Positions 1 through 64,000 of a stretch of 64,000 bases of DNA are shown here, piece after piece. Source of the stretch: Cornus controversa (taxonomy: Eukaryota > Streptophyta > Magnoliopsida > Cornales > Cornaceae); NCBI GenBank assembly GCA_026545225.1, contig CM048845.1:107582533-107646532 (forward strand), written 5' to 3'. Under the pieces are notes generated by a model, which did not search any database, was not told the origin of the DNA, and saw only the letters and a list, made by a program, of their open reading frames with translations. The number at the start of each line of letters is the position of its first letter. Positions within the stretch are counted from its first letter, which is position 1. Position numbers and translations under genes: made by a program.

Positions 1-2795
1 GTACTAGAGAGGGGTAATAGGAAAACTTTCAACAGGAAGGCAAGGGAACGGTATTCAAACATTGGAGCAGAGAGTACGATGAAGATTTTGGAATAGGGAG
101 TTCAAACTCTCATTAGTTATCTTTTTCGATACGTTATGAGAGAAATTATATATCCAAAGGGGACATTGTTGGCATTTTGGACATATTGAGTGGTTGAGGG
201 CGGTCTTTGATTTTGAAAAAGAAGGGTAATAGAATGATTTGAATCGTTATAGTGAAAAGATTATTGAGAGTTTGACAGTCCTTTTTGGTCTTCGTTTTTG
301 AAACCCCCGGTATTAGGATGATTTAAAATCATTACAATAATAATAATATTATTTTTGAATGGGGTCTAAAAAAGATAGTTTTACAAACATAGAATAAGAA
401 GATTTTGGAATATTGAGATAAAGAAATAAATTTGAAAGAGGGAGCGCGGAGCTGAATTTGAAGATATTTTAAACGGGGAATAAAACTATATTTCTTCAAA
501 CAAGGAGTTACAACGAGGATTTTGGAACACGTAGTTAAAACTATCATTGGATCTCTTTTTTGATAGTTTATTGGAGAAATTGTATATCCGTGGGGACATT
601 GTTGACATTTTGGGCATATTGAGAAGTTGAGGGCCCTATTTGGTCCGTATTTTTTAAATTAGGAGGCGGTGAAAGGATAGCTTTGAATACGGTGGTAAAA
701 GAATGATTTTTAAACATTGACGTAAAATGATGATTAGTTGTCATTTTTGATACGTTTATGAGAGAAATTGTACATCCATTGGGGACATTATTGAAATTTT
801 GGACATATTGAGAAATTGAGGGCCCTATTCTGTAACAGAGAGGGGTATTCAAACATTAGAGCAGAGAGTACGACGTAGATTTTGCAATAGGGAGTTCAAA
901 CTATCATTAGTTCTCTTTTATAATAGGTTATGAAAGAAATTATATATCCATGGGGGACATTTTTTGGCATTCTGGACATATTGAGTGTTTGAGGGAGGTC
1001 TTTGATTTTGAAAAAGAGGGGTAATAGAATGATTTGTATCGTTATTGTAATAATATTATTGAGAGGTTGACGGCCCAATTTGGTTTTTGTTTTTGAAACT
1101 GGGAGGGGTAGTAGGATGATTTAAAATCATTACAATAATAATAATATTATTTTTGAATGGGGTCTAAATAAGATAGTTTTAGAAACATAGAGTAAAAAGA
1201 TTTTGGAACATTGAGAAAAAAAGATAAATTTTGAAAGAGGGAGTTGAATTTGAAGATATTTTAAATGGGGAATAAAACTACAGTTTTTCAAACAGGGAGC
1301 TACAACGAGGATTTTTGAACACGGAGTTAAAAGTATCATTGGATCTCTTTTTTGATAGTTTATGGGAGAAATTGTATATCCACGGGGACATGGTTGACCC
1401 TTTGGGCATATTGAGAAGTTGAGAGCCCTATTTGGGCCTTATTTTTGAAATTAGGATGCAGTAAAAGAATAACTTCGAATAGGGCGGTAAAAGAATGATT
1501 TTTAAACATTGAGGTAAAATGATGATTAGTTCTCATTTTTGATACATTTATGAGAGAAATTGTACATCCGTTGGGGACATTATTGAAATTTTTGACATTT
1601 TGAGAAATTGAGGGCCCTATCCTGTAATAGAGAGGGGTAGTAGGATAACTTTCAATAGGAATGCAAGAGAACGGTATTCAAGCATTGGAGCAGAGAGTAC
1701 GATGTAGATTTTGGAATAGGGAGTTCAAACTGTCAGTAGTTATCTGTTTCGATACGTTATGAGAGAAATTATATATCCACAGGGGACATTGTTGGCATTT
1801 TGGACATATTGAGTGGTTGAGGGCGGTCTTTGATTTTGAAAAAGAAGGGTAATAGAATGATTTGAATCGTTATAGTGAAAAGATTATTCAGAGTTTGACA
1901 GTCCTTTTTGGTCTTCGTTTTCGAAACCCCCGGTAATAGGATGATTTAAAATCATTACAATAATAATAATATTATTTTTGAATGTGGTCTAAAAAAGATA
2001 GTTTTACAAACATAGAGTAAGAAGATTTTGGAACATTGTGATAAAAAAATAAATTTGAAAGAGGGAGCTGAATTTGAAGATATTTTAAACGGGGAATAAA
2101 ACTATAGTTCTTCAAACAAGGAGCTACAACGAGGATTTGGGAACACGGAGTTAAAACTATCATTGGATCTCTTTTTTGATAGTTTATTGGAGAAATTGTA
2201 TATCCGTGGGGACATTGTTGACATTTTGGGCATATTGAGAAGTTGAGGGCCCTATTTGGTCCGTATTTTTTAAATTAGGAGGCGGTGAAAGGATAGCTTT
2301 GAATAGGGTGGTAAAAGAATCATTTTTAAACATTGACGTAAAATGATGATTAGTTGTCATTTTTGATACGTTTATGAGAGAAATTGTACATCCGTTGGGG
2401 ACATTACTGAAATTTTTGACATATTGAGAAATTGAGGGCCCTAACCTGTAATAGAGAGGGGTAATAGGATAACTTTCAACAGGAACGCAAGAGAACGGTA
2501 TTCAAACATTGGAGCAGAGAGTACGATGTAGATTTTGGAATAGGGAGTTCAAACTATCATTAGTTATCTTTTTCGATATGTTATGAGAGAAATTATATAT
2601 CCAGAGGGGACATTGTTGGCATTTTGGACATATTGAGTGGTTGAGGGCGGTCTTTGATTTTGAAAAAGAAGGGTAATAGAATGATTTGAATCGTTATAGT
2701 GAAAAGATTATTGAGAGTTTGACAGTCCTTTTTGGTCTTCGTTTTTGAAACCCCCGGTAATAGGATGATTTAAAATCATTACAATAATAAAAATA

Positions 2796-5700
2796 TTATT
2801 TTTGAATGGGGTCTAAAAAAGATAGTTTTACAAACTTAGAGTAAGAAGATTTTGGAACATTGAGGTAAAAAAATAAATTTGAAAGAGGGAGCTGAATTTG
2901 AAGATATTTTAAACGGAGAATAAAACTATAGTTTTTCAAACAAGGAGCGACAACGTGGATTTTGGAACACGGAGTTAAAACTATCATTGGATCTCTTTTT
3001 TGATAGTTTATTGGAGAAATTGTATATCCGTGGGGACATTGTTGACATTTTGGGCATATTGAGAAGTTGAGGGCCCTATTTGGTCCGTATATTTTAAATT
3101 AGGAGGCGGTGAAAGGATAACTTTCAATAGGGTGGTAAAAGAATGATTTTTAAACATTGACGTAAAATGATGATTAGTTGTCATTTTTGATACGTTTATG
3201 AGAGAAATTGTACATCCATTGGGGACATTATTGAAATTTTGGACATATTGAGAAATTGAGGGCCCTATTCTGTAACAGAGAGGGGTATTCAAACATTAGA
3301 GCAGAGAGTACGACGTAGATTTTGCAATAGGGAGTTCAAACTATCATTAGTTCTCTTTTATAATAGGTTATGAAAGAAATTATATATCCATGGGGGACAT
3401 TTTTGGCATTCTGGACATATTGAGTGTTTGAGGGAGGTCTTTGATTTTGAAAAAGAGGGGTAATAGAATGATTTGTATCGTTGTTGTAATAATATTATTG
3501 AGAGGTTGACGGCCCAATTTGGTTTTTGTTTTTGAAACTGGGAGGGGTAGTAGGATGATTTAAAATCATTACAATAATAATAATATTATTTTTGAATGGG
3601 GTCTAAATAAGATAGTTTTACAAACATAGAGTAAAAAGATTTTGGAACATTGAGAAAAAAAGATAAATTTTGAAAGAGGGAGTTGAATTTGAAGATATTT
3701 TAAATGGGGAATAAAACTACAGTTTTTCAAACAGGGAGCTACAACGAGGATTTTTGAACACGGAGTTAAAAGTATCATTGGATCTCTTTTTTGATAGTTT
3801 ATGGGAGAAATTGTATATCCACGGGGACATGGTTGACCCTTTGGGCATATTGAGAAGTTGAGGGCCCTATTTGGGCCTTATTTTTGAAATTAGGAAGCAG
3901 TAAAAGAATAACTTTGAATAGGGCGGTAAAAGAATGATTTTTAAACATTGAGGTAAAATGATGATTACTTCTCATTTTTGATACATTTATGAGAGAAATT
4001 GTACATCCGTTGGGGACATTACTGAAATTTTTGACATATTGAGAAATTGAGGGCCCTAACCTGTAATAGAGAGGGGTAATAGGATAACTTTCAACAGGAA
4101 CGCAAGAGAACGGTATTCAAACATTGGAGCAGAGAGTATGATGTAGATTTTGGAATAGGGAGTTCAAACTATCATTAGTTATCTTTTTCGATATGTTATG
4201 AGAGAAATTATATATCCAGAGGGGACATTGTTGGCATTTTGGACATATTGAGTGGTTGAGGGCGGTCTTTGATTTTGAAAAAGAAGGGTAATAGAATGAT
4301 TTGAATCGTTATAGTGAAAAGATTATTGAGAGTTTGACAGTCCTTTTTGGTCTTCGTTTTTGAAACCCCCGGTAATAGGATGATTTAAAATCATTACAAT
4401 AATAAAAATATTATTTTTGAATGGGGTCTAAAAAAGATAGTTTTACAAACTTAGAGTAAGAAGATTTTGGAACATTGAGGTAAAAAAATAAATTTGAAAG
4501 AGGGAGCTGAATTTGAAGATATTTTAAACGGAGAATAAAACTATAGTTTTTCAAACAAGGAGCGACAACGTGGATTTTGGAACACGGAGTTAAAACTATC
4601 ATTGGATCTCTTTTTTGATAGTTTATTGGAGAAATTGTATATCCGTGGGGACATTGTTGACATTTTGGGCATATTGAGAAGTTGAGGGCCCTATTTGGTC
4701 CGTATATTTTAAATTAGGAGGCGGTGAAAGGATAACTTTCAATAGGGTGGTAAAAGAATGATTTTTAAACATTGACGTAAAATGATGATTAGTTGTCATT
4801 TTTGATACGTTTATGAGAGAAATTGTACATCCATTGGGGACATTATTGAAATTTTGGACATATTGAGAAATTGAGGGCCCTATTCTGTAACAGAGAGGGG
4901 TATTCAAACATTAGAGCAGAGAGTACGACGTAGATTTTGCAATAGGGAGTTCAAACTATCATTAGTTCTCTTTTATAATAGGTTATGAAAGAAATTATAT
5001 ATCCATGGGGGACATTTTTGGCATTCTGGACATATTGAGTGTTTGAGGGAGGTCTTTGATTTTGAAAAAGAGGGGTAATAGAATGATTTGTATCGTTGTT
5101 GTAATAATATTATTGAGAGGTTGACGGCCCAATTTGGTTTTTGTTTTTGAAACTGGGAGGGTAGTAGGATGATTTAAAATCATTACAATAATAATAATAT
5201 TATTTTTGAATGGGGTCTAAATAAGATAGTTTTACAAACATAGAGTAAAAAGATTTTGGAACATTGAGAAAAAAAGATAAATTTTGAAAGAGGGAGTTGA
5301 ATTTGAAGATATTTTAAATGGGGAATAAAACTACAGTTTTTCAAACAGGGAGCTACAACGAGGATTTTTGAACACGGAGTTAAAAGTATCATTGGATCTC
5401 TTTTTTGATAGTTTATGGGAGAAATTGTATATCCACGGGGACATGGTTGACCCTTTGGGCATATTGAGAAGTTGAGGGCCCTATTTGGGCCTTATTTTTG
5501 AAATTAGGAAGCAGTAAAAGAATAACTTTGAATAGGGCGGTAAAAGAATGATTTTTAAACATTGAGGTAAAATGATGATTAGTTCTCATTTTTGATACAT
5601 TTATGAGAGAAATTGTACATCCGTTGGGGACATTACTGAAATTTTTGACATATTGAGAAATTGAGGGCCCTAACCTGTAATAGAGAGGGGTAATAGGATA

Positions 5701-8700
5701 ACTTTCAACAGGAACGCAAGAGAACGGTATTCAAACATTGGAGCAGAGAGTACGATGTAGATTTTGGAATAGGGAGTTCAAACTATCATTAGTTATCTTT
5801 TTCGATATGTTATGAGAGAAATTATATATCCAGAGGGGACATTGTTGGCATTTTGGACATATTGAGTGGTTGAGGGCGGTCTTTGATTTTGAAAAAGAAG
5901 GGTAATAGAATGATTTGAATCGTTATAGTGAAAAGATTATTGAGAGTTTGACAGTCCTTTTTGGTCTTCGTTTTTGAAACCCCCGGTAATAGGATGATTT
6001 AAAATCATTACAATAATAAAAATATTATTTTTGAATGGGGTCTAAAAAAGATAGTTTTACAAACTTAGAGTAAGAAGATTTTGGAACATTGAGGTAAAAA
6101 AATAAATTTGAAAGAGGGAGCTGAATTTGAAGATATTTTAAACGGAGAATAAAACTATAGTTTTTCAAACAAGGAGCGACAACGTGGATTTTGGAACACG
6201 GAGTTAAAACTATCATTGGATCTCTTTTTTGATAGTTTATTGGAGAAATTGTATATCCGTGGGGACATTGTTGACATTTTGGGCATATTGAGAAGTTGAG
6301 GGCCCTATTTGGTCCGTATATTTTAAATTAGGAGGCGGTGAAAGGATAACTTTCAATAGGGTGGTAAAAGAATGATTTTTAAACATTGACGTAAAATGAT
6401 GATTAGTTGTCATTTTTGATACGTTTATGAGAGAAATTGTACATCCATTGGGGACATTATTAAAATTTTGGACATATTGAGAAATTGAGGGCCCTATTCT
6501 GTAACAGAGAGGGGTATTCAAACATTAGAGCAGAGAGTACGACGTAGATTTTGCAATAGGGAGTTCAAACTATCATTAGTTCTCTTTTATAATAGGTTAT
6601 GAAAGAAATTATATATCCATGGGGGACATTTTTGGCATTCTGGACATATTGAGTGTTTGAGGGAGGTCTTTGATTTTGAAAAAGAGGGGTAATAGAATGA
6701 TTTGTATCGTTGTTGTAATAATATTATTGAGAGGTTGACGGCCCAATTTGGTTTTTGTTTTTGAAACTGGGAGGGGTAGTAGGATGATTTAAAATCATTA
6801 CAATAATAATAATATTATTTTTGAATGGGGTCTAAATAAGATAGTTTTAGAAGCATAGAGTAAAAAGATTTTGGAACATTGAGAAAAAAAGATAAATTTT
6901 GAAAGAGGGAGTTGAATTTGAAGATATTTTAAATGGGGAATAAAACTACAGTTTTTTAAACAGGGAGCTACAACGAGGATTTTTGAACACGGAGTTAAAA
7001 GTATCATTGGATCTCTTTTTTGATAGTTTATGGGAGAAATTGTATATCCACGGGGACATGGTTGACCCTTTGGGCATATTGAGAAGTTGAGGGCCCTATT
7101 TGGGCCTTATTTTTGAAATTAGGAAGCAGTAAAAGAATAACTTTGAATAGGGCGGTAAAAGAATGATTTTTAAACATTGAGGTAAAATGATGATTACTTC
7201 TCATTTTTGATACATTTATGAGAGAAATTGTACATCCGTTGGGGACATTACTGAAATTTTTGACATATTGAGAAATTGAGGGCCCTAACCTGTAATAGAG
7301 AGGGGTAATAGGATAACTTTCAACAGGAACGCAAGAGAACGGTATTCAAACATTGGAGCAGAGAGTACGATGTAGATTTTGGAATAGGGAGTTCAAACTA
7401 TCATTAGTTATCTTTTTCGATATGTTATGAGAGAAATTATATATCCAGAGGGGACATTGTTGGCATTTTGGACATATTGAGTGGTTGAGGGCGGTCTTTG
7501 ATTTTGAAAAAGAAGGGTAATAGAATGATTTGAATCGTTATAGTGAAAAGATTATTGAGAGTTTGACAGTCCTTTTTGGTCTTCGTTTTTGAAACCCCCG
7601 GTAATAGGATGATTTAAAATCATTACAATAATAAAAATATTATTTTTGAATGGGGTCTAAAAAAGATAGTTTTACAAACTTAGAGTAAGAAGATTTTGGA
7701 ACATTGAGGTAAAAAAATAAATTTGAAAGAGGGAGCTGAATTTGAAGATATTTTAAACGGAGAATAAAACTATAGTTTTTCAAACAAGGAGCGACAACGT
7801 GGATTTTGGAACACGGAGTTAAAACTATCATTGGATCTCTTTTTTGATAGTTTATTGGAGAAATTGTATATCCGTGGGGACATTGTTGACATTTTGGGCA
7901 TATTGAGAAGTTGAGGGCCCTATTTGGTCCGTATATTTTAAATTAGGAGGCGGTGAAAGGATAACTTTCAATAGGGTGGTAAAAGAATGATTTTTAAACA
8001 TTGACGTAAAATGATGATTAGTTGTCATTTTTGATACGTTTATGAGAGAAATTGTACATCCATTGGGGACATTATTGAAATTTTGGACATATTGAGAAAT
8101 TGAGGGCCCTATTCTGTAACAGAGAGGGGTATTCAAACATTAGAGCAGAGAGTACGACGTAGATTTTGCAATAGGGAGTTCAAACTATCATTAGTTCTCT
8201 TTTATAATAGGTTATGAAAGAAATTATATATCCATGGGGGACATTTTTGGCATTCTGGACATATTGAGTGTTTGAGGGAGGTCTTTGATTTTGAAAAAGA
8301 GGGGTAATAGAATGATTTGTATCGTTGTTGTAATAATATTATTGAGAGGTTGACGGCCCAATTTGGTTTTTGTTTTTGAAACTGGGAGGGGTAGTAGGAT
8401 GATTTAAAATCATTACAATAATAATAATATTATTTTTGAATGGGGTCTAAACAAGATAGTTTTACAAACATAGAGTAAAAAGATTTTGGAACATTGAGAA
8501 AAAAAGATAAATTTTGAAAGAGGGAGTTGAATTTGAAGATATTTTAAATGGGGAATAAAACTACAGTTTTTCAAACAGGGAGCTACAACGAGGATTTTTG
8601 AACACGGAGTTAAAAGTATCATTGGATCTCTTTTTTGATAGTTTATGGGAGAAATTGTATATCCACGGGGACATGGTTGACCCTTTGGGCATATTGAGAA

Positions 8701-9250
8701 GTTGAGGGCCCTATTTGGGCCTTATTTTTGAAATTAGGAAGCAGTAAAAGAATAACTTTGAATAGGGCGGTAAAAGAATGATTTTTAAACATTGAGGTAA
8801 AATGATGATTAGTTCTCATTTTTGATACATTTATGAGAGAAATTGTACATCCGTTGGGGACATTACTGAAATTTTTGACATATTGAGAAATTGAGGGCCC
8901 TATCCTGTAATAGAGAGGGGTAATAGGATAACTTTCAACAGGAACGCAAGAGAACGGTATTCAAACATTGGAGCACAGAGTACGATGTAGATTTTGGAAT
9001 AGGGAGTTCAAACTATCATTAGTTATCTTTTTCGATACGTTATGAGAGAAATTATATATCCACAGGGGACATTGTTGGCATTTTGGACATATTGAGTGGT
9101 TGAGGGCGGTCTTTGATTTTGAAAAGAAGGGTAATAGAATGATTTGAATCGTTATAGTGAAAAGATTATTGAGAGTTTGATAGTCCTTTTTGGTCTTCGT
9201 TTTTGAAACCCCCGGTAATAGGATGATTTAAAATCATTACAATAATAATA
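2796..9250. repeat. higher-order repeat core, ~1,615 bp dimer
   Basis: Equivalent landmarks lie at 2,796, 4,411, 6,025 and 7,640 (type A) and at 3,569, 5,183, 6,798 and 8,413 (type B). This gives a strict 1,614-1,615 bp period made of A (about 842 bp from A landmark to the next A-type landmark minus B) and B (about 773 bp). Copies differ by only a handful of substitutions and single-base indels as read by eye. A is marked by GTGGGGACATTGTTGACA and B by ACGGGGACATGGTTGACC. The high identity implies recent homogenisation by unequal exchange or gene conversion. The outer copies (before 2 kb and after 11 kb) are more diverged. Confidence 0.9.
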
Positions 9251-9254
9251 ATAT

Positions 9255-10060
9255 TATTTTTGAATGGGGTCTAAAAAAGATAGTTTTACAAACATAGAGT
9301 AAGAAGATTTTGGAACATTGAGATAAAAAAATAAATTTGAAAGAGGGAGCGGAGCTGAATTTGAAGATATTTTAAACGGGTAATAAAACTATAGTTCTTC
9401 AAACAAGGAGCTACAAGAGGATTTTGGAAGACGGAGTTAAAACTATCATTGGATCTCTTTTTTGATAGTTTATTGGAGAAATTGTATATCCGTGGGGACA
9501 TGGTTGACCCTTTGGGCATATTGAGAAGTTGAGGGCCCTATTTGGGCCTTATTTTTGAAATTAGGAAGCAGTAAAAGAATAACTTTGAATAGGGCGGTAA
9601 AAGAATGATTTTTAAACATTGAGGTAAAATGATGATTACTTCTCATTTTTGATACATTTATGAGAGAAATTGTACATCCGTTGGGGACATTACTGAAATT
9701 TTTGACATATTGAGAAATTGAGGGCCCTATCCTGTAATAGAGAGGGGTAATAGGATAACTTTCAACAGGAACGCAAGAGAACGGTATTCAAACATTGGAG
9801 CAGAGAGTACGATGTAGATTTTGGAATAGGGAGTTCAAACTATCATTAGTTATCTTTTTCGATACGTTATGAGAGAAATTATATATCCAGAGGGGACATT
9901 GTTGGCATTTTGGACATATTGAGTGGTTGAGGGCGGTCTTTGATTTTGAAAAAGAAGGGTAATAGAATGATTTGAATCGTTATAGTGAAAAGATTATTGA
10001 GAGTTTGACAGTCCTTTTTGGTCTTCGTTTTTGAAACCCCCGGTAATAGGATGATTTAAA
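9255..10060. repeat. chimeric satellite monomer (A head, B tail)
   Basis: This monomer breaks the A-B alternation. It begins with the type-A segment (GGGGTCTAAAAAAGATAG and an A-type linker carrying a short extra GCG-like insertion, also seen near 440). At about 9,495 it switches to the type-B mark GGGGACATGGTTGACC and continues as B. The A landmarks therefore step 7,640 to 10,082 and the B landmarks 8,413 to 10,855, both 2,442 bp, which is one dimer plus about 827 bp. This is the expected product of unequal crossing-over between A and B monomers. Confidence 0.75.
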
Positions 10061-13000
10061 ATCATTACAATAATAATAATATTATTTTTGAATGGGGTCT
10101 AAAAAAGATAGTTTTACAAACATAGAGTAAGAAGATTTTGGAACATTGAGGTAAAAAAATAAATTTGAAAGAGGGAGCTGAATTTGAAGATATTTTAAAC
10201 GGGGAATAAAACTATAGTTTTTGAAACAAGGAGCGACAACGTGGATTTTGGAACACGGAGTTAAAACTATCATTGGATCTCTTTTTTGATAGTTTATTGG
10301 AGAAATTGTATATCCGTGGGGACATTGTTGACATTTTGGGCATATTGAGAAGTTGAGGGCCCTATTTGGTCCGTATATTTTAAATTAGGAGGCGGTGAAA
10401 GGATAACTTTCAATAGGGTGGTAAAAGAATGATTTTTAAACATTGACGTAAAATGATGATTAGTTGTCATTTTTGATACGTTTATGAGAGAAATTGTACA
10501 TCCATTGGGGACATTATTGAAATTTTGGACATATTGAGAAATTGAGGGCCCTATTCTGTAACAGAGAGGGGTATTCAAACATTAGAGCAGAGAGTACGAC
10601 GTAGATTTTGCAATAGGGAGTTCAAACTATCATTAGTTCTCTTTTATAATAGGTTATGAAAGAAATTATATATCCATGGGGGACATTTTTGGCATTCTGG
10701 ACATATTGAGTGTTTGAGGGAGGTCTTTGATTTTGAAAAAGAGGGGTAATAGAATGATTTGTATCGTTGTTGTAATAATATTATTGAGAGGTTGACGGCC
10801 CAATTTGGTTTTTGTTTTTGAAACTGGGAGGGGTAGTAGGATGATTTAAAATCATTACAATAATAATAATATTATTTTTGAATGGGGTCTAAATAAGATA
10901 GTTTTACAAACATAGAGTAAAAAGATTTTGGAACATTGAGAAAAAAAGATAAATTTTGAAAGAGGGAGTTGAATTTGAAGATATTTTAAATGGGGAATAA
11001 AACTACAGTTTTTCAAACAGGGAGCTACAACGAGGATTTTTGAACACGGAGTTAAAAGTATCATTGGATCTCTTTTTTGATAGTTTATGGGAGAAATTGT
11101 ATATCCACGGGGACATGGTTGACCCTTTGGGCGTATTGAGAAGTTGAGGGCCCTATTTGGGCCTTATTTTTGAAATTAGGAAGCAGTAAAAGAATAACTT
11201 TGAATAGGGCGGTAAAAGAATGATTTTTAAACATTGAGGTAAAATGATGATTAGTTCTCATTTTTGATACATTTATGAGAGTAATTGTACATCCGTTGGG
11301 GACATTATTGAAATTTTTGACATATTGAGAAATTGAGGGCCCTATTCTGTAACAGATAGGGGTATTCAAACATTAGAGTAGAGAGTACAACGTAGATTTT
11401 GCAATAGGGAGTTCAAACTATCGTTAGTTATCTTTTTTGAGAGGTTATGAAAGAAATTATATATCCATGGGGGACATTGTTGGTATTTTGGACATATTGA
11501 GTGATTGAGGGAGGTCTTTGATTTTGAAAAAGAGGGGTAATAGAATGATTTGAATCGTTATAGTAATAATATTATTGAGAGGTTGACGGCCCAATTTGGT
11601 GTTTGTTTTTGAAACGGGGAGGGGTAGTAGGATGATTTAAAATCATTACAATAATAATAATATTATTTTTAAATGGGGTCTAAATAAGATAGTTTTACCA
11701 ACATAGAGAAAAGATTTTGGAACATTGAGAAAAAAAGATAAATTTTTAAAGAGGGACTTGAATTTGAAGATATTTTAAATGGGGAATAAAACTATTGTTT
11801 TTCAAACAGGAAGCTACAACGAGGATTTTGGAACACGGAGTTAAAAGTATCATTGGATCTCTTTTTTGATAATTTATGGGAGAAATTGTATGTCCATGGG
11901 GACATTGTTGACATTTTGGGCATATTGAGAAGTTGAGGGCCCTATTTGGTCCGTATTTTTTAAATTAGGAGGCGGTGAAAGGATAGCTTTGAATAGGGTG
12001 GTAAAAGAATGATTTTTAAATAGTGACGTAAAATGATGATTAGTTCTCATTTTTGATACATTTATGAGAGAAATTGTACATCCGTTGGGGACATTATTGA
12101 AATTTTGGACATATTGAGAAATTGAGGGCCCTATCCTGTAACTTTCAACAGGAATGTAAGAGAATGATATTCAAACATTGGAGCCGAGAGTACGATGTAG
12201 ATTTTGGAATTGGGAGTTCAAACTATCATTAGTTATCTTTTTCGATACGTTATGAGAGAAATTATATATCCACGGGGGACATTGTTGGCATTTTGGACAT
12301 ATTGAGTGGCTGAGGGAGGTCTTTGATTTTGAAAAAGAAGGGTAATAGAATGATTTGAATCGTTATAGTAAAAAGATTATTGAGAGTTTGACAGCCCTTT
12401 TTGGTCTTCGTTTTTGAAACCCCCGGTAATAGGATGATTCAAAATCATTGCAATAATAATAATATTATTTTTGAATGGGGTCTGTAAAAGATAGTTTTAC
12501 AAACATAGAGTAAGAAGATTTTGGAACATTGATATAAAAAGATAAATTTTGAAAGAGGGAGTTCAATTTGAAGATATTTTAAACGGGGAATAAAACTATA
12601 GTTTTTCAAACAGGGAGTTACAACGAGGATTTTGCAACAAGGAGTTAAAACTATCATTGGAACTCTTTTTTGATAGTTTATGGGAGAAATTTTATATTCA
12701 TTGGGACATTGATGACATTTTGGGAATATTGAGAGGGGGAAGCCCCTATTTGGTCCTTATTTTTTAACTGAGGAGGGGTAAAAGGATAGCTTTGAATATG
12801 GTGGGAAAAGAATGATTTTTAAACATTGAGGTAAAATGACGATTAGTTCTCTTCTTTGATAGTTTTATGAGAGAAATTGTACATCCATTGGGCATATTAT
12901 TGACATTTTGGACATATTGAGAAATTTAGGGCCTTATTTGGTCTTTGTTTTTGAAACAGAGAGGGGTAATAGGATAACTTTGAACAAGATGGTAAAAGAA

Positions 13001-15659
13001 TGATTTTGAAACATTAAAATAGAGAGTTACAACGTAGATTTTGCAACAGGGAGTTAAAACTATCATTTGTTCTCTTTTTTGATAGGTTATGAGAGAAATT
13101 ATACATCTATAGGGGACATTGTTGGCATTTTGGACATATTGAGTGGTTGAGGGCTGTCTTTGTTTTTGAAATAAAGGGGTAATAGAATGATTTGAATCGT
13201 TAGAGTGAAAAATTATTGAGAGGTTGACAACACTATTTGGTCTTTGTTTTTGAAACGGGGAGGGGTAGTAGGATGATTTAAAATCATTACAATAATAATA
13301 ATATTATTTTTGAATGGGGTCTAAAAAGATAGTTTTACAAACATAGAGTAAGAAGATTTTGGAACATTGAGATAAAAAGATAACTTTTGAAAGAGGGAGT
13401 TGATTTGAAGATATTTTAAACTGGGAATAACACTATAGTTTTTTAAACAGGGAGCTACAACGAGGATTTTGGAACACGGAGTTAAAACTATCATTGGATC
13501 TCTTTTTTGATAGTTTATGGGAGAAATTGTATATCCATGGGGACATTGTTGACATTTTGGGCATATTGGGAAATTGAGGGCCCTATTTGGTCCTTATTTT
13601 TGAACTTAGGAGAGGGTAAAAGGATAACTTTAAATAGGATTGTAAAAGAATGATTTTTAAACATTGAGGTAAAATGATAATTAGTTCTCATTTTTGATAC
13701 ATTTATGAGAGAAATTGTACATCCATTGGGGACATTATTGAAATTTTGGACATATTGGGAAATTGAGGGCCCTATTTGGTCCTTGTTTTTGAAATAGAGA
13801 GGGTAATAGGATAACTTTGAACAGGGTGGTAAAAGAATGATTTTCAAACATTAAAAGAGAGAGTTACGATGTCGATTTTGCAACAGGGAGTTAAAACTAT
13901 CATTAGTTCTCTTTTTTGATAGGTTAGGAGAGAAATTATATATCCATGGGTGGCATTGTTGGCATTTTGGACATATTGAGTGGTTGAGGGCTGTCTTTGT
14001 TTTTAAAACAAAGGGGTAATAGATTGATTTGAATCGTTATAGTAAAAAGATTATTGAGAGGTTGACGACCCTATTTGGTCTTTGTTTTTGAAACGGGGAG
14101 GGGTAATGGGATGATTTAAAATTGTTACAATAATAATAATATTAATTTTGAATGGGGTCTAAAAAATATAGTTTTACAAACACAGAGTTAGAATATTTTG
14201 GAACATTGAGATAAAAAGATAAATTTTGAAAGCGGGAGTTGAATTTGAAGATATTTTAAACGGGGAATAAATCTATAATTTTTCAAACAGGGAGCTACTA
14301 CGAGGATTTTGCAACAAGGAGTTAAAACTATCATTGGATCTCTTTTTTGATAGTTTATGGGAGAAATTGTATATCCATGGGGATATTGTTGACATTTTGG
14401 GCATATTGAGAGGTTGAGGGCCCTATTTGGTCCTTTTTTTAAAAAAAAAGAGAGTAATAGGATGATTTCGAATCGTTATAATAAAAGATTATTTTTGAAA
14501 AGGGTCTGAAAATGATAGTTACACAAACATATAGTTAGAAAGAAGATTTGAACCATTGAGATAAAATATGAATGTTGACAGAGGAAGTTGAATGAAAGAT
14601 TTTTGGAACAGGGAATTAAAACTGTGGTTTTTCAAACAGGGAGCTGCAACGAATATTTTGCAATAGACTTAAATCTATCATTAGTTCTCTACTTTTATAG
14701 GTTTATGGGAGAAATTGTATATCCAAGGGGGACATTGTTGACATTTTGGATATTTTGTGAGGTTAAAGGCTCTATTTGGTCCTTGAATCGTTATAGTAAA
14801 AAGATTATTTTTGAAATGGGGTCTGGAAAAGGTAGTTTTACAAACATATAGTTAGAAAAGAAGATTTTGGAACATGAAGGTAAAAATATGATTTTTGAAA
14901 AAGCGAGTTGAATAGAGGATTTTTTAAACGGGGAATCAAAACCATGGTTTTTGAAAAAGGAAGGTACAATGAAGATTTTGTAACAGGGAGTTAAAACTAT
15001 CATTAGTTCTCTTTTTTGATAGGTTTATGGGAGAAATTGTATATTCATGGGGGACATTGTTGACATTTTGGACATATTGAGAAGTTGAGGGCCCTATTTG
15101 GTCTATGTTATTGAAACAGGGTGGGATAATAAGATGATTTAGAATCATTGTAGTAAAAAGGTTTTTTTTTATAGGGGTCTAAAAAAGATTGTTTTACAAA
15201 CATGGAGTAAGAAGATTTTGGAACAATGAGATAAAAAGATAAATTTTGAAAGAGGGAGTTGAATTTGAAGATATTTTAAACGGGGAATCAAAATTATAGT
15301 TTTTCAAATAGGGAGCTACAATGACGATTTTGCAACAAGGAGTTAAAACTATCATTAGAACTCTTTTTTGATAGATTGTGAGAGAAATTGTATATCCATG
15401 GGGGACATTGTTGACATTTTGGGCATATTGAGAAGTTAAGGGCCCTATTTGGTCCTTATTTTTGAAACACTGAAGGATAATATGATGATTTTGAATTGCT
15501 AAAGTAAAAACTATCATTAGTTCTATTTTTTGATAGGTTTATGGGAGAAATTGTATATCCATGGGGGACATTGTTGACATTTTGGACATCTTTAGAGACA
15601 AAGGGCCCTATTTGGTCCTTGTTTTTGAAATAGAGAGGGGTAATAGGATGATTTTGAAT

Positions 15660-16500
15660 CATTATAGTAAAAAGATTATTTTTTAAATAGGGAGGGGTAA
15701 TAGTATAACTTTGAACAATGTGATAAAAGTATGATTTTGAAACAATGATGTAAAAAGATTATTTTGAAATGGGTGAAAAAACAATAATATTTTAAATAGA
15801 AAACAGATAATTTTGAAACATTGAAGAGAAAATATAATTTTATAAAGATTGATTAAAAAGAGAAAATTTGAAATAGAGAGTCAAAAGACGAAACTAGGAG
15901 TTAGAAAGAAGATTTTTGAAACTGGGAGATAAAAGGATCATTTTGAAACATTGAAGTAAAAATATAGAAAAAAGAATATTTTTCAAACAGGTAGGGGTAA
16001 TAGGATAACCTTGAAGAGGGTTCTAAAAAGATAATCTTGAAACATTGAGGGAAAAAAGATTATTTTTGAAGTGCGTGAAAAAACAGTAAGATTTTGAAAT
16101 AGAAAACAAATAATATTAAAACATTGAGGTGAAAAGATGATTTTATAAAGATAGATTAAAAAAATAATATTTGAAATAGGGAGTCAAAAGACGAAACTAG
16201 AAGTTAAAAAGAAGATTTTTGCAACATGTTTTGAAACAGGGAGATAAAAGGATCATTTTGATATATTGAAGTGAAAATATTATTTTTGAAATGGGGAAAC
16301 AAGGAGATAAAATGATCATTTTGAAACATTGAAGTAAAAATATTCTGAAAAGGATAGTTTTAGAAACAAAGAATTAAAAAGAAGATTTTGGAACATTGAG
16401 GTAAAAAGATTAATTATGAAAGAGGGAGCTAAATAGAAGATTTTGAAATGGGGAGTCAAAACTATGGTTTTTGAAACAGGGAGCTACAACAAAGATTTTG
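15660..16500. repeat. degenerate ~25-30 bp micro-repeat zone
   Basis: Here the large monomer structure dissolves. The sequence is a run of short units of the form (A/G)ATTTTGAAACATTGAGGTAAAA, GATTATTTTTGAAATGGG and GATTTTTGAAACTGGGAGATAAAA, each about 25-30 bp and degenerate. The same short units can be recognised inside the linker of every large monomer. The zone therefore looks either like the ancestral substrate of the satellite or like a decayed edge in which only the micro-repeat survives. Confidence 0.7.
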
Positions 16501-17796
16501 CAATGGGGAGTTAAAACTATCATTAGTTCTATTTTTTGATAGCTTTATGGGGGACATTTTATATTCATGGGGGACATTGTTGACATTTTGGACATATTGA
16601 GATGTTTGAGGGCCCTATTTGGCCCTTGTTTTTAAAACGGGGAAGGGTAATAAGATGATTTTGAATCATTATAGTAAAAAGATTGTTTTTGAAAGGAGGT
16701 CTAAAAAAGATAGTTTTACAAACATAGAGTTAGAAAGAAGATTTTGGAACATTGAGGTAAAAAGATAAATTTCGAAAGAGGGAGTTAAATGAAAGATTTT
16801 TGAAACAGAGAGTTCAAACGATGGTTTTTAAAATAGGGAGCTACAACGAAGATTTTGGAATAGAGAGTTAAAACTATCATTAGTTTTCTTTTTTGAAACT
16901 ATCATTAGTTCTCTTTTTTGTTAGGTTTATAGGAGAAATTGAATATCCATGTGGGACATTGTTGACATTTTGGACATATTGAGAGGTTAAGGGCCCTATT
17001 TGGTTCCTGTTTTTTAAACAGGGAGGGGTCATTGGGATTATTTTGAATCGTTATAGTAAAAAGATTATTTTTGAATGAGAGTCTGAAAAAGATAGTTTTA
17101 CAAACATATAGTTAGAAAGAAGATTTTGGAACATTTAAGTAAAAAGATGAATTTTGAAAGTGGAAGTTTAATAGAAGATTTTTTAAACGGGGAGTTAAAA
17201 CTATAGTTTTTGAAACAGGGAGCTAGAACTTTGCAACATGGAGTTAAAACTATCATTAGTTCTCTTTTTTCATATGTTTATGGGAGAAATTGTATATCCA
17301 CAGGGGACAGTGTCATTTTAGACATATTGAGTGGTTGAGGGCTATATTTGGTCCTTGTTTTTGAAACAGGGAGAGGTAATAGGATGATTTTGAATCATTA
17401 TATTAAAAGATTTTTTTTTGAAGTGGGTCTAAAAAAGATAGTTTTATAAACATAGAATTAGAAAAAAGATTTTGGAACATTGAGGTAAAAAGATGAATTT
17501 TGAAACAGTGAGCTGTACAGACGATTTTTGAAATGGGGGAGTCAAAACTATGATTTTGAAACAGGGAACTACAACGAAGATTTTGCACTAGGGAGTTAAA
17601 ACTATCATTAGTTCTCTTTTTTGATAGGTTTATGTGAGAAATTGTATATCCATGGGGGACATTGTTGATATTTTGGATATATTGAGAGGTTGAGGGCCCT
17701 TTGGTAGTTGTTTTTGAAACAGGGTGGGGTAATAGGATGATTTTGAATCGTTATTATGGTTAATGAGATTTTAAGAGGGTTTGAATACTCAAAAAC

Positions 17797-18455
17797 TCAT
17801 CCCTATGGCTTTTAAAATTGACCTACACAAGGCCTATGATTCTACTTCTTGGAATTTTCTATTTTGCACTTTGAAAACTTTTGGCTTTGGTGATAAATGG
17901 ATTGGGTGGGTAAAGGAATGCCTCTCCACTGCTTGGTTCTCTGTTTTAGTTCATGGATCTCCTGCTGGCTATTTCCAACCACAAAGGGGTTTGAGGCAGG
18001 GTTTGGCTTCATCACCTCTCCTTTTTACTCTCATCACAGAGATTTTTTCTTCTATGATTCTGTATGAGGGTGAGAATGGCAGGTTTTTTGTTCAGTTCAG
18101 TTGCTGTACAAAATGGTATGTCTTTCACTCACTGCTTTTATGCAGTTGATCTGTTTTTAATTTCCAACGCTAATATCAAATTTGTTGGTTGTAGTGTCAA
18201 TATTCTTAAAAAATTCCAACACCTGTCTGGGCTCTCAGATAACTACAATAAAAGCAAGGGCATTTTTCTCTAAATCAGTGAGAAGGAAGAATCAGATTTG
18301 TCGAGTCCTGGGCATGAGCTCTGGGACTCTACCTATGCAGTACTTGGATTTGCCTATGACTGACAGGGGACTGAAGAAAAAGGAGTGCAAAATCTTATTA
18401 AATAAAGTTGCTGCTAAGCTCAATAATTGGGGATCTCTAAGTTTATCCTAAGCGG
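17797..18455 (+). pseudogene. LINE reverse transcriptase fragment
   Basis: The open stretch from about 17,781 reads AFKIDLHKAYDSTSWNFL, GFGDKWIGWVKECLSTAWFSV, GSPAGYF and RGLRQGLASSPLLF. These match RT blocks 1-4 of plant L1 elements. The frame shifts near 18,100, and the catalytic box reads FYAVD where YADD is expected, so one catalytic aspartate is lost. The post-catalytic thumb region (SGLSDNYNKSKG, LGMSSGTLPMQYLDLPM, NNWGSLSLS) continues in other frames to about 18,450. The residues before FKIDL (VNEILRGFEYSKTHP) are in another frame, showing a further shift just inside the truncation point. Confidence 0.85.
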
Positions 18456-18589
18456 GGGACTTGAGTTGATTAAATCAGTGATTTATTCGATAATTCAATA
18501 TTGGTAATGTGCTTTCAAGCTTCATGTTGCTGCTGTATTTGTTATTGAGAAGATGATTAAAACTTCTTGTGGGGGTTGCAGTCAAAATT

Positions 18590-19380
18590 CTAGAAAGTTA
18601 CACCTCTTGAGATGGAGTACGGTTTCTTTTCAGTGTAAATTGTTCCGGGATTTTGTCCAAGAGAATGATAGAATGAGGATCCCCGGTTGAAACAGATCGA
18701 TTTGCAGCATGAATCCATTTGGTCCTGCACTGTGAGGAAAATGCATTCCATGTTCTGGAAACATTTTCTAGAAGTCACAGAATTTATGGCTAGCAATGTC
18801 ACTTCCCAAATTGGTGATGGCCAAGCTCTAAGACTCTTCCTGGGCCCATGGTGGAATGGATATTCTTTAATTCAGACTTTTGGCCATAAGATTAAAAGGA
18901 AATTTGATCTTTTTAGAACAGCTCCTCTTAGTGCTATCCTTCATAATGGTAGATGGAGGAAACCAGAGTTTCTGGCTGAGGAAGTTGAAGATATTTGGAA
19001 TCAAATTGCTGTTGTTCCTATTGTGCAAGGCTCTGACTGTATTAACTGGAAACATGGTGTTGCATCATTCAAATCTATTTGGAAACATTATAGAACAGAA
19101 GGTCCTAAAAAACAATGGTCTAAGTTAGTGTGGAATGGAGGGCCAGCTGTGTGTATCACCTCTTGTTTGGCCATACAAAATAAGTTGCCTTCTCTTTCAA
19201 ATTTACAGCTTTGGGGCATGTGTTACATCTATCTGTCATAATTGTATGAAGAATTCTAACTTGAGAGATCATCTATTTTTCAGTTGTTGTTTTGCTCAGA
19301 AGATTTGGAACTGGTTGGCTAGTTTGTTCAATTGGAATTGGGGCAGTGTGGAACTGTGGATAGCTTTGATAAGCTGATGG
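18590..19380 (+). pseudogene. LINE C-terminal region with zf-RVT-like end
   Basis: An open stretch from 18,687 carries IGDGQALRLFLGPWWNG, the typical plant LINE 'I(G/R)DG..-W.D.W' block, and later SFKSIWKHYRTEGPKKQW. The zinc-finger-like end (CHNCMKNSNLRDHLFFSCCFAQKIWNW, split here by a frame change near 19,230) follows. This module is shared with the RNase-H-less C terminus of plant L1 ORF2. Several frame changes make it non-functional. Downstream to 19,850 there is only 3' untranslated-like T-rich sequence. Confidence 0.78.
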
Positions 19381-20320
19381 GTTGTTTTACTGTTAATTCA
19401 AAGCCTAGAAATACTAAAAGCAAAATGTTGAGACTAATTTTCACTTATACCACTGCTGGCAAATTTGTTGGTCCAGGAATCAGAAATTTCATGATGATAT
19501 TGATGTTAATCCCTATAAAGCTGCAAGGTAGATTTTATGGAATATTGTGGATACTTTAGGTCTTCAACTTTAGGACCTGCTGCAGGTGTTTTGTCTTTAA
19601 GGGGGCCTTCTAACAATGACCAGATTGTTAGAAGGTTTTGTGGATTGTTTTGTCTTCCCATTTGTTCTATTGGTTTCATTGTTTTGTTTCCTTTCGTTGG
19701 CTTTTTTGTTTTGATGTTCTTGTTAGCAAACTTCTGGAAATGGGCTTTTGGTAAGCCTTTTCTGATTTTGATTGAGAACTTTTTTGGTTCTCCTGTTGTT
19801 GTATTTCTGTTTGTTTGTTAATGAAATTATTTGGCTTAGGAAAAAAAAAGACTAAAAAAATATAATTTTGAATATAAATAAGTAGTGTTTGGGTAGGGGC
19901 TGCAGTTGGCTTAAATCAATAGTGTTTGGCTAGACAATGTGGTCTCTCTCCTTTGCGACCAAATATCATCTTTTATTGTAATCCTACAGCAATCTTAACA
20001 AGGGGTACAACACCAATATCCTCTACTAATAAATCCTAAATTCAAATAAATAATAGAGTACAACCATAACATTTAAAAAGTCAAAAGATCATACAGTATA
20101 GTAGAACATGTAAGACATTTTAAAATGTGATCAATTTCCATGAATTGTAGAATCATGTCAGAAATAAACATTTGCACATATAGTATAGTAGTAGCAAGAG
20201 TGAGACTTAGACAAAATATAAATAGAACAAGATTAAAACAGATACATAACCAAATGGACTTAGAGCATAAGAAATCTGGAAACAAATATTTCGCAAATTG
20301 GAAAATAAAGGGTGAACTAC

Positions 20321-22844: not shown

Positions 22845-23964
22845 GGATAAATATCACTAACACCTCTCAGAGGTTTGATGTTTTGACATGCAATTACAAC
22901 TTTGTGAATTTTCGTCACCAACACTCCCTGTCAGCTTTTTCATTTTTTTAATATGTGAAATGTCTTGATTGTCTATAATTATTTAAATATATTTTAATAT
23001 AAAAATATCATAATAAAAAAATGACCACAATACCTTTCTTGATTGCCATTTCAATTAATTTTTTATTTTATGTTAATATTATTATTTATGGAAATAAATA
23101 ATTATATATATTAGGTTATGTATATTATATTCTATATATATAGATGAATAGAGAAAAAGAAAGAAATTTAATTACTTTTTATTTATGTTAACATTATTAT
23201 TTATGAAAATAAATAATTATATATATAGGTTATATATATATATTATTGTATAATGTATATATATAGATTGATAGAGAAAAAGAAACAGAAATTTAATTAC
23301 TTTTTATTTTATATTAACATTATTATTTATGAAAATAAATAATTATATATATATATATATATATATAGATAGATAGAGAAAAAGAAATAGAAATTTAATT
23401 ACTTTTTATTTTATGTTAACATTATTATTTATGAAAATAAATAATTATATATATAGGTTATATATATATATATATATATTATAGTATAGTGTATATATAT
23501 AGATTTATAGAGAAAAAAAATAGAAATTTAATTACTTTTTTTATTTGATATTAACATTATTATTTATGAAAATAAATAATTATATATATATTATAGTATA
23601 CTGTGTGTATATATATACACATATAGATAAAGAAAAAGAAAAAGAAATAGTATATTGTATATATATATTACATATATTGTAGTATATATATATATATATA
23701 TATATAGGTATATTCAAAGGGGTATTTTGGTCCATTAGATAGGGTTAAATGGGTAAATTTAGTATTCAAATGGTTTATGTTAGAAGTCAAAGGGTAACAT
23801 GGCCTTTTCACCGTCAAAAAGTACTCTCACACGTATACTTTTGGTAGAAGGAAGTGTATGTGATATATGGCACAAACCACAAGAGATATTGGTGACAAAA
23901 ATTCACAAAGTTATAGTAGCGCGTCAATACATCAAACATCAGGAGGTGTCAGTAATCTATACCC
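22845..23964. mobile_element. Mutator-like TIR element, 1,120 bp, with 9-bp TSD
   Basis: The left end (GGATAAATATCACTAACACC, then AGGTTTGATG and AACTTTGTGAATTTTCGTCA) and the reverse complement of the right end (GGGTATAGATTACTGACACC, then ATGTTTGATG and AACTTTGTGAATTTTTGTCA) form terminal inverted repeats of about 80 bp. They are flanked by AAAATTTTA (22,836-22,844) and AAAAGTTTA (23,965-23,973), a 9-bp duplication with one mismatch. Long TIRs and a 9-bp duplication are the hallmark of Mutator-like elements. There is no transposase. The interior is a ~115 bp AT-rich tandem array. A second family member lies at 28,102-32,828. Confidence 0.8.
23050..23640. repeat. ~115 bp AT-rich tandem repeats inside the TIR element
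   Basis: Five copies of a unit with the order TTACTTTTTATTTTA, then TTAACATTATTATTTATG, then AAATAAATAATTATATATAT, a (TA)n run, then GATAGAGAAAAAGAAA. Copies start near 23,058, 23,171, 23,297, 23,398 and 23,532. The spacing varies mainly through the (TA)n run. The same unit is repeated at 32,130-32,590 in the second element. Confidence 0.85.
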
Positions 23965-26390: not shown

Positions 26391-26397
26391 AACCGCC

Positions 26398-31736: not shown

Positions 31737-32125
31737 TCTCCACCAACTACTTCCCCACAGCCTCTTTCTCACACCTCTATAGCTCTTTTACACTGAAATG
31801 TCGCCATTCACAACAATCAGCTTCTCATCATAACCCACCACCATCGTCTTCATTGACGTTTCTGACCCGAAATGCTTCACAGAGCTCACAGCCAACGACA
31901 CCCTCTGTTTTCAATTACTCTCAAATCAATTCTTGAAAAACATTAAAATTCAATTCAAATCGGGGTTTCCAATAGAAACCCAGCTCTGTTCTACACAATG
32001 TTTCTTAACATCGACCTCACTGCCTAATTTATTGTATTTTGACATTGTGTTTGTGGATCTGATGCGTAGAATTTGTGGAGGTGGAGCTAGAAAAGGATTG
32101 GGGATTTCATGGTGTTAGGATTTTG
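31737..32125. other. second gene-like block of the TIR element
   Basis: A GC-richer stretch with open frames in both directions, for example plus-strand FKSGFPIETQLC and minus-strand MKTMVVGYDEKLIVVNGDIS. It adjoins the 28.3-28.57 kb block once the solo LTR is set aside. No family is recognised. Its absence from the smaller TIR relative and its higher GC suggest captured sequence. Confidence 0.35.
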
Positions 32126-32129
32126 AGAA

Positions 32130-32333
32130 AAAGAAAGAAAATTTTAATTACCTTTTTTTATTTTATGTTAACATTAGTATTTATGGAAATAATAATTATA
32201 TATATAGGTTATATATTATAGTATATATATATAGATAGAGAAAAAGAAAGAAAATTTTAGTTCCTTTTTTATTTTATGTTAGCATTAGTATTTATGGAAA
32301 TAAATAATTATATATATAGGTTATATATTATAG

Positions 32334-32391
<58 letters not shown>

Positions 32392-32590
32392 AAGAAAATT
32401 TTAGTTCCTTTTTTATTTGATGTGAATATTAGTATTTATGGTAATAAATAATTATATATAGGTTATATTATTGTGTGTGTATATATATACATAGAAAAAA
32501 AAAGAAAATTTTAATTATTTTTTTATTTTATGTTAACATTATTATTTATGAAAATAAATAATTATATATACAGGTTATATATATTATACT
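32130..32590. repeat. ~115 bp AT-rich tandem repeats in the second TIR element
   Basis: Four copies near 32,145, 32,260, 32,405 and 32,515, each with TTTTTATTTTATGTTAACAT, then TTTATGGAAATAAATAATTA, (TA)n, and GAGAAAAAGAAAGAAAATTT. One copy contains a (TA)n(GA)n expansion at about 32,336-32,391. The unit matches 23,050-23,640. Confidence 0.85.
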
Positions 32591-32828
32591 GTATATATAT
32601 ATACAGGGTTGTTGAAAGGGGCATTTTGGTAAAATAATAAATTTAGTATTCAAATGGGTTGGGTCAGAAGTCGAAGGACAGCATGGTCTTTTCACCATCA
32701 AAAAGTGCTCTGACATGGTGTACTTTTGATAGAAAGGAGTATATGTGATACACGGCACAAACCATATGGGGGTATTGGTGACAAAAATTCACAAAGTTAT
32801 AATCGCGTGGCAATACATCAAACCTCAA

Positions 32829-41715: not shown

Positions 41716-41719
41716 TGCT

Positions 41720-50200: not shown

Positions 50201-50260
50201 TGAAAAAACATAATAATACAAATTTACAGCTAGATCAGAAGTTGCTCACCGAGTAAAAAT
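47170..50260. other. non-coding 3' flank of NLR relic C
   Basis: No gene seen. It holds an (AT)n tract at 47,181-47,210 and long stretches paralogous to 24.1-26.2 kb, for instance 48,100-48,700 and 49,440-49,700. The order of the blocks is not fully collinear: the TTCATTCATCAACATGAG block lies after the CTCTAGGACATAATCC block here and before it near 24 kb, indicating a rearrangement. AGAAACAACAGAGAGAATG near 50,190 has no assigned role. Confidence 0.65.
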
Positions 50261-62605: not shown

Positions 62606-62610
62606 GACTT

Positions 62611-64000
62611 TGAGAAGTTGAGGGCCCAATTTGGTCCTTATTTTTTAAATTAGGAGGGTGTTAAAGGATAACTTTGAATAGGGTGGTAAAAGAATGATTT
62701 TTAAAAATTGAGGTAAAATGATGATTAGTTGTCATTTATGAGAGAAATTGTACATCCATTGGGGATACTATTGAAATTTTGGACATATTGAGAAATTAAG
62801 AGCCCTATTCTGTAACAGAGCTCTTTATGGCCCTATTTCGTCTTTGTTTTTGAAACGTGTAGGGGTAATAGGATGATTTAAAAATGTTATAATAATAATA
62901 TTATTAATTTTGAATGGGGTCAAAGAAAGATAGTTTAAAAACATAGAGCAAGAAGATTTTGGAACATTGAGATAAACAGATAAATTTGGAAAGAGGGAGT
63001 CGAATTTGAAGATATTTTAAACAGGGAAAAAAATAATAGTTTTTCAAACAGGGAGCTACAACGAGGATTTTGCAACTTCGAATTAAAACTATCATTCGAT
63101 CTCCTTTTTGATAGTTTATGGGAGAAATTCTACATCCATTGGGGACATTATTGAAATTTTAGACATATTGAGAGCCCTATTCTGTAACTGAGAACTTGAC
63201 GGCCCTATTTGGTCTTTGTTTTTGAAACGTGTAGGGGTAATAGGATGATTTAAAATCGTTATAATAATAATATTATTAAGTTTGAATGGGGTCTAAAAAA
63301 TATAGTTTTAAAAACATAGAGCAAGAAGATTTTGGACCATTGAGATAAACGGATAAATTTTGAAAGAGCGAGTCGAATTTGAAGATATTTTAAACGGGGA
63401 ATAAAACTATAGTTTTTCAAACAGGGAGCTACAACGAGGATTTTGCAACTCGGAATTAAAACTATCGTTGGATCTCTTTTTTGGTAGTTTATAGGAGAAA
63501 TTGTATATCCATGGGGACATTGTTGACATTTTGGAAATATTGAGAAATTGAGGGCCCAATTTGGTCCTTATTTTTGAAATTAGGAGGGTGTTAAAGGATA
63601 ACTTTAAATAGGGTGGTAAAGGAATGATTTTTAAAAATTGAGGTAAAATGATGATTAGTTGTCATTTTTGATACATTTATGAGAGAGATTGTACATCCAT
63701 TCGGGACATTGTTGATAGTTAATGGGATAAATTGTATATCCATGGGGACATTGTTGACATTTTGGGCATATTGAGAAGTTGAGAGCCCAATTTGTTCCAT
63801 ATTTTTGAAATTAGGAGGGTGTTAAAGGATATTGTTGACATTTTGGGCTTATTGAGAAGTTGAGAGCCCAATTTGTTCCATATTTTTGAAATTAGGAGGG
63901 TGTTAAAGGATAACTTTGAATAGGATGGTAGAAGAATGATTTTTAAAAATAGAGGTAAAATGATAATTAGTCGTCATTTTTGATACATTTATGAGAGAGA
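62611..64000. repeat. satellite array, right block (same family)
   Basis: From GAGAAGTTGAGGGCCCAATT onward the same boxes as in 1-17,756 recur (GAGAAATTGTACATCCATTG, GGGGACATT, TTTTGGAACATTGAGATAAA, TTTTTCAAACAGGGAGCTAC) in the same orientation. The copies are diverged from the homogenised core and carry deletions and local duplications, resembling the decayed 11-15 kb part. The block continues past the window. Confidence 0.92.
63735..63915. repeat. ~90 bp direct duplication in the right satellite block
   Basis: TTGTTGACATTTTGGGC(A/T)TA, TTGAGAAGTTGAGAGCCCAA, TTTGTTCCATATTTTTGAAA and TTAGGAGGGTGTTAAAGGAT occur twice in succession, at about 63,741-63,829 and 63,832-63,910. This is a very recent sub-monomer duplication, nearly identical between copies. 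Confidence 0.85.

Follow-up and report, generated by a model that had tools for sequence, protein, structure and literature searches.

What kind of tandem repeat occupies this locus of Cornus controversa, from what was its unit built, and how did its higher-order arrangement come about? Most work on higher-order repeats concerns centromeres, where effects of selection and chromatin make interpretation harder. The stretch of DNA analysed here, referred to as the window, spans 64,000 nucleotides (C1:107,582,533-107,646,532) of a 771.7 Mb assembly of 61 contigs, in which contig C1 measures 129,126,409 bases. Positions 1-17756 of the window are a head-to-tail array with every core anchor on the plus strand, and this array consists of the following parts.

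1..12683, plus strand: higher-order part of the array, made of composite monomers A (791 bp) and B (824 bp) together with hybrids and a single older variant, extending left past the window
3014..9475, plus strand: four consecutive A-B dimers with a period of 1614-1615 bp; the last B measures 827 bp, so the last step is 1618
12684..14360, plus strand: two older composite monomers of 837 and 840 bp, grouped in the monomer tree with monomers of other arrays
14361..17756, plus strand: array edge, mostly single units of ~350-380 bp, composed of a LINE-derived core and 27-28 bp motifs

The array runs left of the window to about C1:107,520,300 and ends on the right at 107,600,288, for a total of ~80 kb with all cores on the plus strand in the parts read; in C1:107,524,033-107,532,532 and 107,542,533-107,552,532 it is traced by pattern matches. 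At least one non-satellite interruption lies before C1:107,523,706. Over positions 1-14360, identity at lag 1615 reaches 53%, the highest of all lags from 700 to 5000, compared with a shuffled background of ~29% (from lags 5-119). Between 3014 and 9475, 16-mers recur at spacings of 1615 (2203 times), 1614 (1404 times) and 1618-1619 (22 times, at the last dimer), which bears out an earlier, sequence-only reading of the locus as a higher-order satellite with a 1,614-1,615 bp period over at least four dimers. The decay towards the right edge described in that reading is likewise present, with monomers of 837-840 bp at 12684-14360 followed by mostly single ~350 bp units up to 17756. The monomer lengths of ~842 and ~773 bp given there have to be replaced by 791 bp (A) and 824 bp (B), as spacings of 773 and 842 each occur zero times among the 16-mers of 3014-9475 and the lag identities at these two values equal background. 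When cut at the best-conserved anchor, the array yields 17 monomers between 574 and 14360, in the order A B A/B A B A B A B A B B A B/A followed by three older ones. The ABAB core that had been proposed for 1-17756 therefore stands for the four dimers of 3014-9475, where A (790-791 bp) alternates with B (824-827 bp), and strict alternation is restricted to them.

Copies of the multimer are far more alike than the monomers inside it, in agreement with the homogenised higher-order repeat anticipated from the sequence: A copies are 98.9-100% alike, whereas A and typical B share 85-86%. Among typical copies, A (m4, m6, m8, m10 and m13; n=5) is conserved at 99.4-100% and B (m5, m7 and m9) at 99.8-99.9%, the identity between these two sets is 85.3-86.0%, and 114 alignment columns, 73 substitutions and 41 gap columns, separate A from B. 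Two monomers combine both types.

2190..3013, plus strand: hybrid monomer m3, A-like to ~2370 and B-like from ~2394, a register switch inside a core
11091..11879, plus strand: hybrid monomer m14, B-like to ~11295 and mostly A-like from ~11345, mixed between

Additionally, m12 starts with two A columns and is then mostly B, switching at 9493-9502. The switch points of m3, m14 and m12 each fall inside or beside a conserved core, three cases being too few for a claim of hot spots. To the left of the window, the succession of monomers is locally broken, with steps of 637, 397 and 381 bp. Over 47.8 kb of array, comprising the window's array and L001, L002 and L003, there are also repeated blocks of 10.6-11.3 kb that are 98.3-98.4% identical and offset by 29.2 and 5.7 kb. 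Broken order, recurring blocks and hybrids together would be the trace expected of repeated unequal exchange. Near-identical dimers might instead reflect an assembly artefact in which the repeat was collapsed or over-expanded, given that m4 (start 3014) and m13 (start 10300) are identical at 791 of 791 bp and that the sequence is known from the assembly alone. We regard such an artefact as barely credible, in view of the irregular order with its hybrids, the diverged edges that grade into the core, and the different period of a paralogous array.

Four levels of organization are nested within one another, namely a 27-28 bp motif, a unit of ~350-380 bp, a composite monomer of ~790-840 bp and the A-B dimer. 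The ~800 bp monomer contains three anchors ~430, 188 and 172 or 209 bp apart, and a fourth core, truncated, can be made out by eye. Aligned in wrap-around fashion to a 28 bp motif, 16600-17693 resolves largely into 27-28 bp copies, with one core interrupting. Shuffled sequence also attains high totals in this scoring, up to 261 versus 442 for monomer m2, and therefore the lag test is the better support for the motif: lag 28 at the edge lies 14.8 SD over mononucleotide shuffles, compared with 4.5 SD at lag 27 in a control stretch of the window. Rfam returned 0 matches at gathering scores and viral contigs returned 0 matches to the exact core pattern; there are no telomere tandems in the window and no G-quadruplex runs in 1-17756. 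Four exact satellite strings had no occurrence in the literature searched, a comparison that included no plant repeat library; to this extent the earlier impression of an uncatalogued sequence is not contradicted. Literature on the unit lengths gave nothing relevant by title and a search on nested composite satellites found none.

The ~113 bp core of the units is homologous to the 3' end of an L1-like LINE, covering the end of ORF2 and the start of the 3'UTR. Its best-scoring copy in the window is as follows.

15510..15622, plus strand: ~113 bp core homologous to LINE ORF2 end and 3'UTR start, E 2e-31

Allowing up to 3 mismatches, a 24-base pattern from the core occurs in the genome at 939 forward and 167 reverse places (control 0 and 1), and among the 100 matches listed, 30 are single places outside three clusters on C1, found on both strands of C1-C6, C8-C10 and C12. 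Nine of these 30, from contigs other than C1, were examined and, having been picked by the core pattern, all nine were bound to contain the core. Each of the nine is a LINE end with, by eye, an A-rich tail. In BLAST comparisons seven have matches to other copies both left and right of the core, L051 matches only rightwards from the core and L055 only leftwards. L052 and L056 can be aligned over 2.2 kb upstream at 71%; the ORFs of L056 match RVT_1 (1.9e-21), with zf-RVT below cut-off (2.8e-5), and those of L052 match zf-RVT (5.4e-16), with RVT_1 below cut-off (1.7e-6). The core spans the last ORF2 codons, the stop and ~20-25 bases past the stop in L050 and L056; L052 and L053 are frame-shifted or reading on at the core.

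With a profile of the nine LINE ends, 66 places are detected in the window; all are on the plus strand and none falls in 17757-62609. Mean scores are 89.2 bits at the edge (n=8), 68.1 bits at 12600-14360 (n=7), 59.8 bits left of that (n=46) and, lowest of all, 49.0 bits in a second array at the right end of the window (n=5). Because the edge units score highest, the edge looks nearest to the origin, and since the second array scores lowest, a low score need not mean a young one. In a tree of 26 units, five of the six edge units stand apart with support of 100/100 and the sixth stands beside all others, a placement that holds for a midpoint root only. Homology to a dispersed LINE applies to the ~113 bp core only and excludes the motif, which shows no resemblance above shuffles to the LINE tail or upstream sequence. 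Derivation of the motif from the LINE tail or from the region upstream was rejected, with 160 to 326 of 500 resampled tails reaching the observed score in six tests.

The sequence-only reading had set its satellite against a dispersed transposon, and here part of the opposition dissolves: the core does match a LINE 3' end, yet the tandem array is real. One could still suppose that the array is a transposon's internal tandem repeats, such as those of Ogre 3'UTRs, moved by transposition and not a satellite. The core is transposon-derived, and such origins are common in Lathyrus sativus according to the available part of one report (PMC7004042). However, the nine dispersed LINE copies align to the window in the core only, bar one 59-base match, and the 28-mer at the motif-core junction (up to 3 mismatches) occurs at 270 forward and 0 reverse places, all of them on C1 among the 100 matches listed. 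Arrays also share flanks on both sides where compared, which is the pattern of segmental duplication, and we judge transposition of internal repeats to be quite improbable. The lists of 100 junction and 100 core-pattern matches lack even exact places known in the window, two of them in the case of the junction, and therefore weaker copies may exist on other contigs.

Satellites with retroelement parents are on record. In animals, the common cetacean satellite (from L1) and chicken HinfI (from the CR1 3'UTR and partial ORF2) derive from LINE 3' ends or ORF2, as far as the accessible text of PMC9659126 describes them. Like these, the present unit draws on the 3' region of a LINE, in this case on the end of ORF2 and the beginning of the 3'UTR; unlike them as they appear in that text, it belongs to a plant, the LINE piece makes up about one third of a ~350 bp unit with the 27-28 bp motif as the rest, and the higher-order repeats of the family differ between arrays. 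Among the papers listed by one literature search, neither titles nor the starts of abstracts describe a LINE-derived plant satellite, and a narrower search found no paper, which is weak evidence of novelty. In the excerpted account of Lathyrus sativus (PMC7004042), the Ogre-derived satellites descend from an LTR element, through expansion of tandem repeats internal to it. The shared features are a plant satellite and a parent retroelement still dispersed in the genome, the difference from what that excerpt covers being that here a LINE coding end lies beside a separate motif.

Exact 40-mer cores map to C1 in 63 of 63 cases (complete list), all on the plus strand, in clusters at 80.70 Mb (n=4), 97.51-97.63 Mb (n=16) and 107.52-107.89 Mb (n=43). 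Copies had been expected beyond this locus, and those found are confined to one contig, but at several loci. A 121-base query across the satellite/LINE border gave the same picture, with 46 of 46 scored matches on the plus strand of C1 (40 of 239 candidates scored), six of them extending over the whole border or nearly so. At a seventh border, 80.7236 Mb, only 69 bases match, with a LINE deletion just inside and the LINE continuing; this border (L058) aligns with L010 over 3.97 kb at 94.5%. Seven arrays in three clusters of C1 thus have one common satellite/LINE right border. Probes of 1.5 kb each at 107.93-108.20 Mb (n=6) and 107.20-107.46 Mb (n=5) had no match to the window, and the extent of the 107 Mb cluster is bounded only at this sampling. 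A genome-wide centromeric satellite would be present on most or all chromosomes; with all 63 exact cores and all 46 scored borders on C1, the array does not qualify as one, even if diverged copies may occur elsewhere. The end of the contig (L036, C1:129124910-129126409) holds a degenerate G-rich repeat with no telomere tandem, and the first 10 kb of C1 are N.

To the right of the array, the window contains the following features.

17757..19850, plus strand: LINE fragment at the array border, with RVT_1 and with zf-RVT below cut-off; the border recurs at seven arrays
24119-27948, 41255-42257 and 48026-51890, ORFs on the minus strand: NLR (LRR) gene fragments, three related broken copies
53965-54411, minus strand: NB-ARC ORF between the two arrays
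62610..64000, plus strand: beginning of a second array, a different subtype of the same family, with units of 372-380 bp, continuing past the window

The 3' end of the border LINE fragment differs by eye from that of the core's LINE. The string ATTTTGAAT flanks this fragment at 17740-17757 and 19849-19875 and may represent a target-site duplication, although no clear continuation of the satellite follows on the right of the fragment. Pieces of the three NLR blocks are 67-84% identical, and a stretch left of the array (L005, 107.48 Mb) has 76-88% identity to NLR and other pieces of the middle region. Also between the arrays are two fragments of inferred Ty3 type (Pfam RT_RNaseH and SH3_Tf2-1) and AT-rich tandem repeats, of which the blocks at 23048-23941 and 32125-32827 have a period of ~102-112 bp and are 74-81% alike. 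Next to the 107.70 and 97.56 Mb borders, parts of this middle region are found again at 79.9-96.1% identity. Beyond the window the second array has spacings of 381 plus 177, 187 or 231, with a top lag of 557 in L009, and within it two 81 bp copies at 63746-63912, 97% alike, represent a recent local duplication. A primer-binding-site-like string, which we take to be of the tRNA-Met type, stands at 62440, 170 bases before the start of the second array, and the left boundary of this array may fall within the beginning of a Ty3-type element. That a single array was split by insertion of the 45 kb middle was rejected, as the two array ends differ in phase and subtype.

NB-ARC and LRR fragments between two arrays recall khipu of common bean, a 528 bp subtelomeric satellite in NLR clusters that occurs on most terminal knobs, as reported in the available portion of PMC6102362. 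The likeness to khipu as portrayed there lies in arrays interleaved with NLR sequences and in segmental duplications carrying both. In contrast to that portrayal, the present family occupies one contig, its last exact core is ~21 Mb from the end of C1, which places it away from a chromosome end if C1 is a whole chromosome, and it has higher-order repeats; the two are set apart by description.

These surroundings also bear on the centromeric or pericentromeric site suggested from the sequence, which finds no support: the 63 exact cores fall in three clusters over 27 Mb of one contig, and in the window the arrays have NLR-gene and transposon fragments as neighbours. It could nevertheless be argued that the array serves this single chromosome as its centromeric or pericentromeric satellite. 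Its exact cores are on one contig only and it is homogenised, and there is a precedent in the chromosome-specific centromeric satellites of Vicia faba, at least in the part of PMC5895790 available, which the present family resembles in being confined to one chromosome as far as found. According to the same part of that source, all but one of the Vicia faba monomers are without internal subrepeats, a difference from the window family. Against a centromere of this chromosome, the clusters are three and widely spread, the arrays measure tens of kb and not Mb, and NLR and LINE fragments surround those in the window. The window has no CENP-B-like box, and the 10 bp WW signal (A 4.0, B 2.8) is not clearly above that of three controls (1.9, 3.6 and 2.9), neither feature being required of a centromere. 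We therefore consider this reading unlikely.

Flanks and interiors of the compared arrays have diverged to very different degrees, the interiors differing far more. The left flank of the window's array matches that of the 97.50 Mb array at 94.7-95.5%, its LINE matches L010, L029 and L040 at 94.9-98.5%, and its edge matches L010 and L040 (the 107.70 and 97.56 Mb edges) at 94.2-95.2%. Pieces of edge plus LINE match three more borders (L059, L060 and L061) at 91.8-98.7%, with an edge-like piece in L019 more distant at 89.6%. The interior of the array at 97.62-97.64 Mb has a period of 1,664 bp, and its monomers are further removed, A and B matching L037 at 82.9% and 84.1% and L041 at 85.0% and 87.4%, respectively. 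To the right of the window, exact cores spaced 2305-2306 bases apart in four steps (C1:107,684,827-107,694,050) and 1369 and 1367 bases apart (C1:107,821,288-107,824,024) hint at additional private higher-order periods.

A monomer tree was built from 49 distinct sequences of the 52 cut from five arrays, monomers of other spacing being excluded; the 80.72 and 107.85 Mb arrays, represented by no more than 3 and 1 monomers with the chosen spacing, carry little weight. A and B form one clade (23 rows, support 99/97) and are sisters, and therefore the window's dimer arose locally. Two seven-row clades are private to the 97.64 Mb array, and the older monomers of several arrays intermingle. Taken with the A and B clade, these private clades indicate that the dimers of the two arrays arose separately. 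Array labels are clustered on the tree, with 8 changes compared with a shuffled mean of 20.3 and a least possible 4, and they are only partly monophyletic, each of four tested arrays needing 2 to 4 changes. As an alternative account of the interior differences, each array could have fixed different old variants. Human alpha satellite has higher-order repeats with diverged monomeric flanks, and the present family is like it in a homogenised core grading into older single edge units and in higher-order repeats specific to each array. Alpha satellite is a different repeat as far as is known, and no kinetochore role is attributed to the present family.

Together these observations point, at a probability we place near 0.8, to a composite, transposon-derived, chromosome-specific satellite that was spread by segmental duplication with NLR fragments and homogenised array by array through unequal exchange. 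Its history may have begun with amplification of a LINE fragment and the short minisatellite next to it into ~350 bp units, after which unequal exchange with deletions would have fused several units into ~800 bp monomers. Segmental duplication, NLR fragments included, could then have spread the array along the chromosome, and unequal crossing-over or conversion within single arrays could have multiplied a local monomer pair into a higher-order repeat private to the array. The data fit passive amplification, and most likely the array has no specific cell function beyond that of a repeat-rich, probably heterochromatic block. A bolder proposal, which we offer only tentatively, is that sister arrays with common borders, once copied by segmental duplication, each invented their own higher-order repeat, and that the arrays may serve as exchange substrates helping to duplicate the intervening NLR fragments.

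The locus keeps the likely steps from transposon scrap to dimeric satellite, and satellite growth is linked here with the copying of disease-resistance gene fragments. With paralogous arrays that lie away from any shown centromere and have alignable flanks, duplication age and interior turnover can be measured separately. If the proposal is true, this chromosome would be a set of replicate natural experiments on the birth of higher-order repeats.
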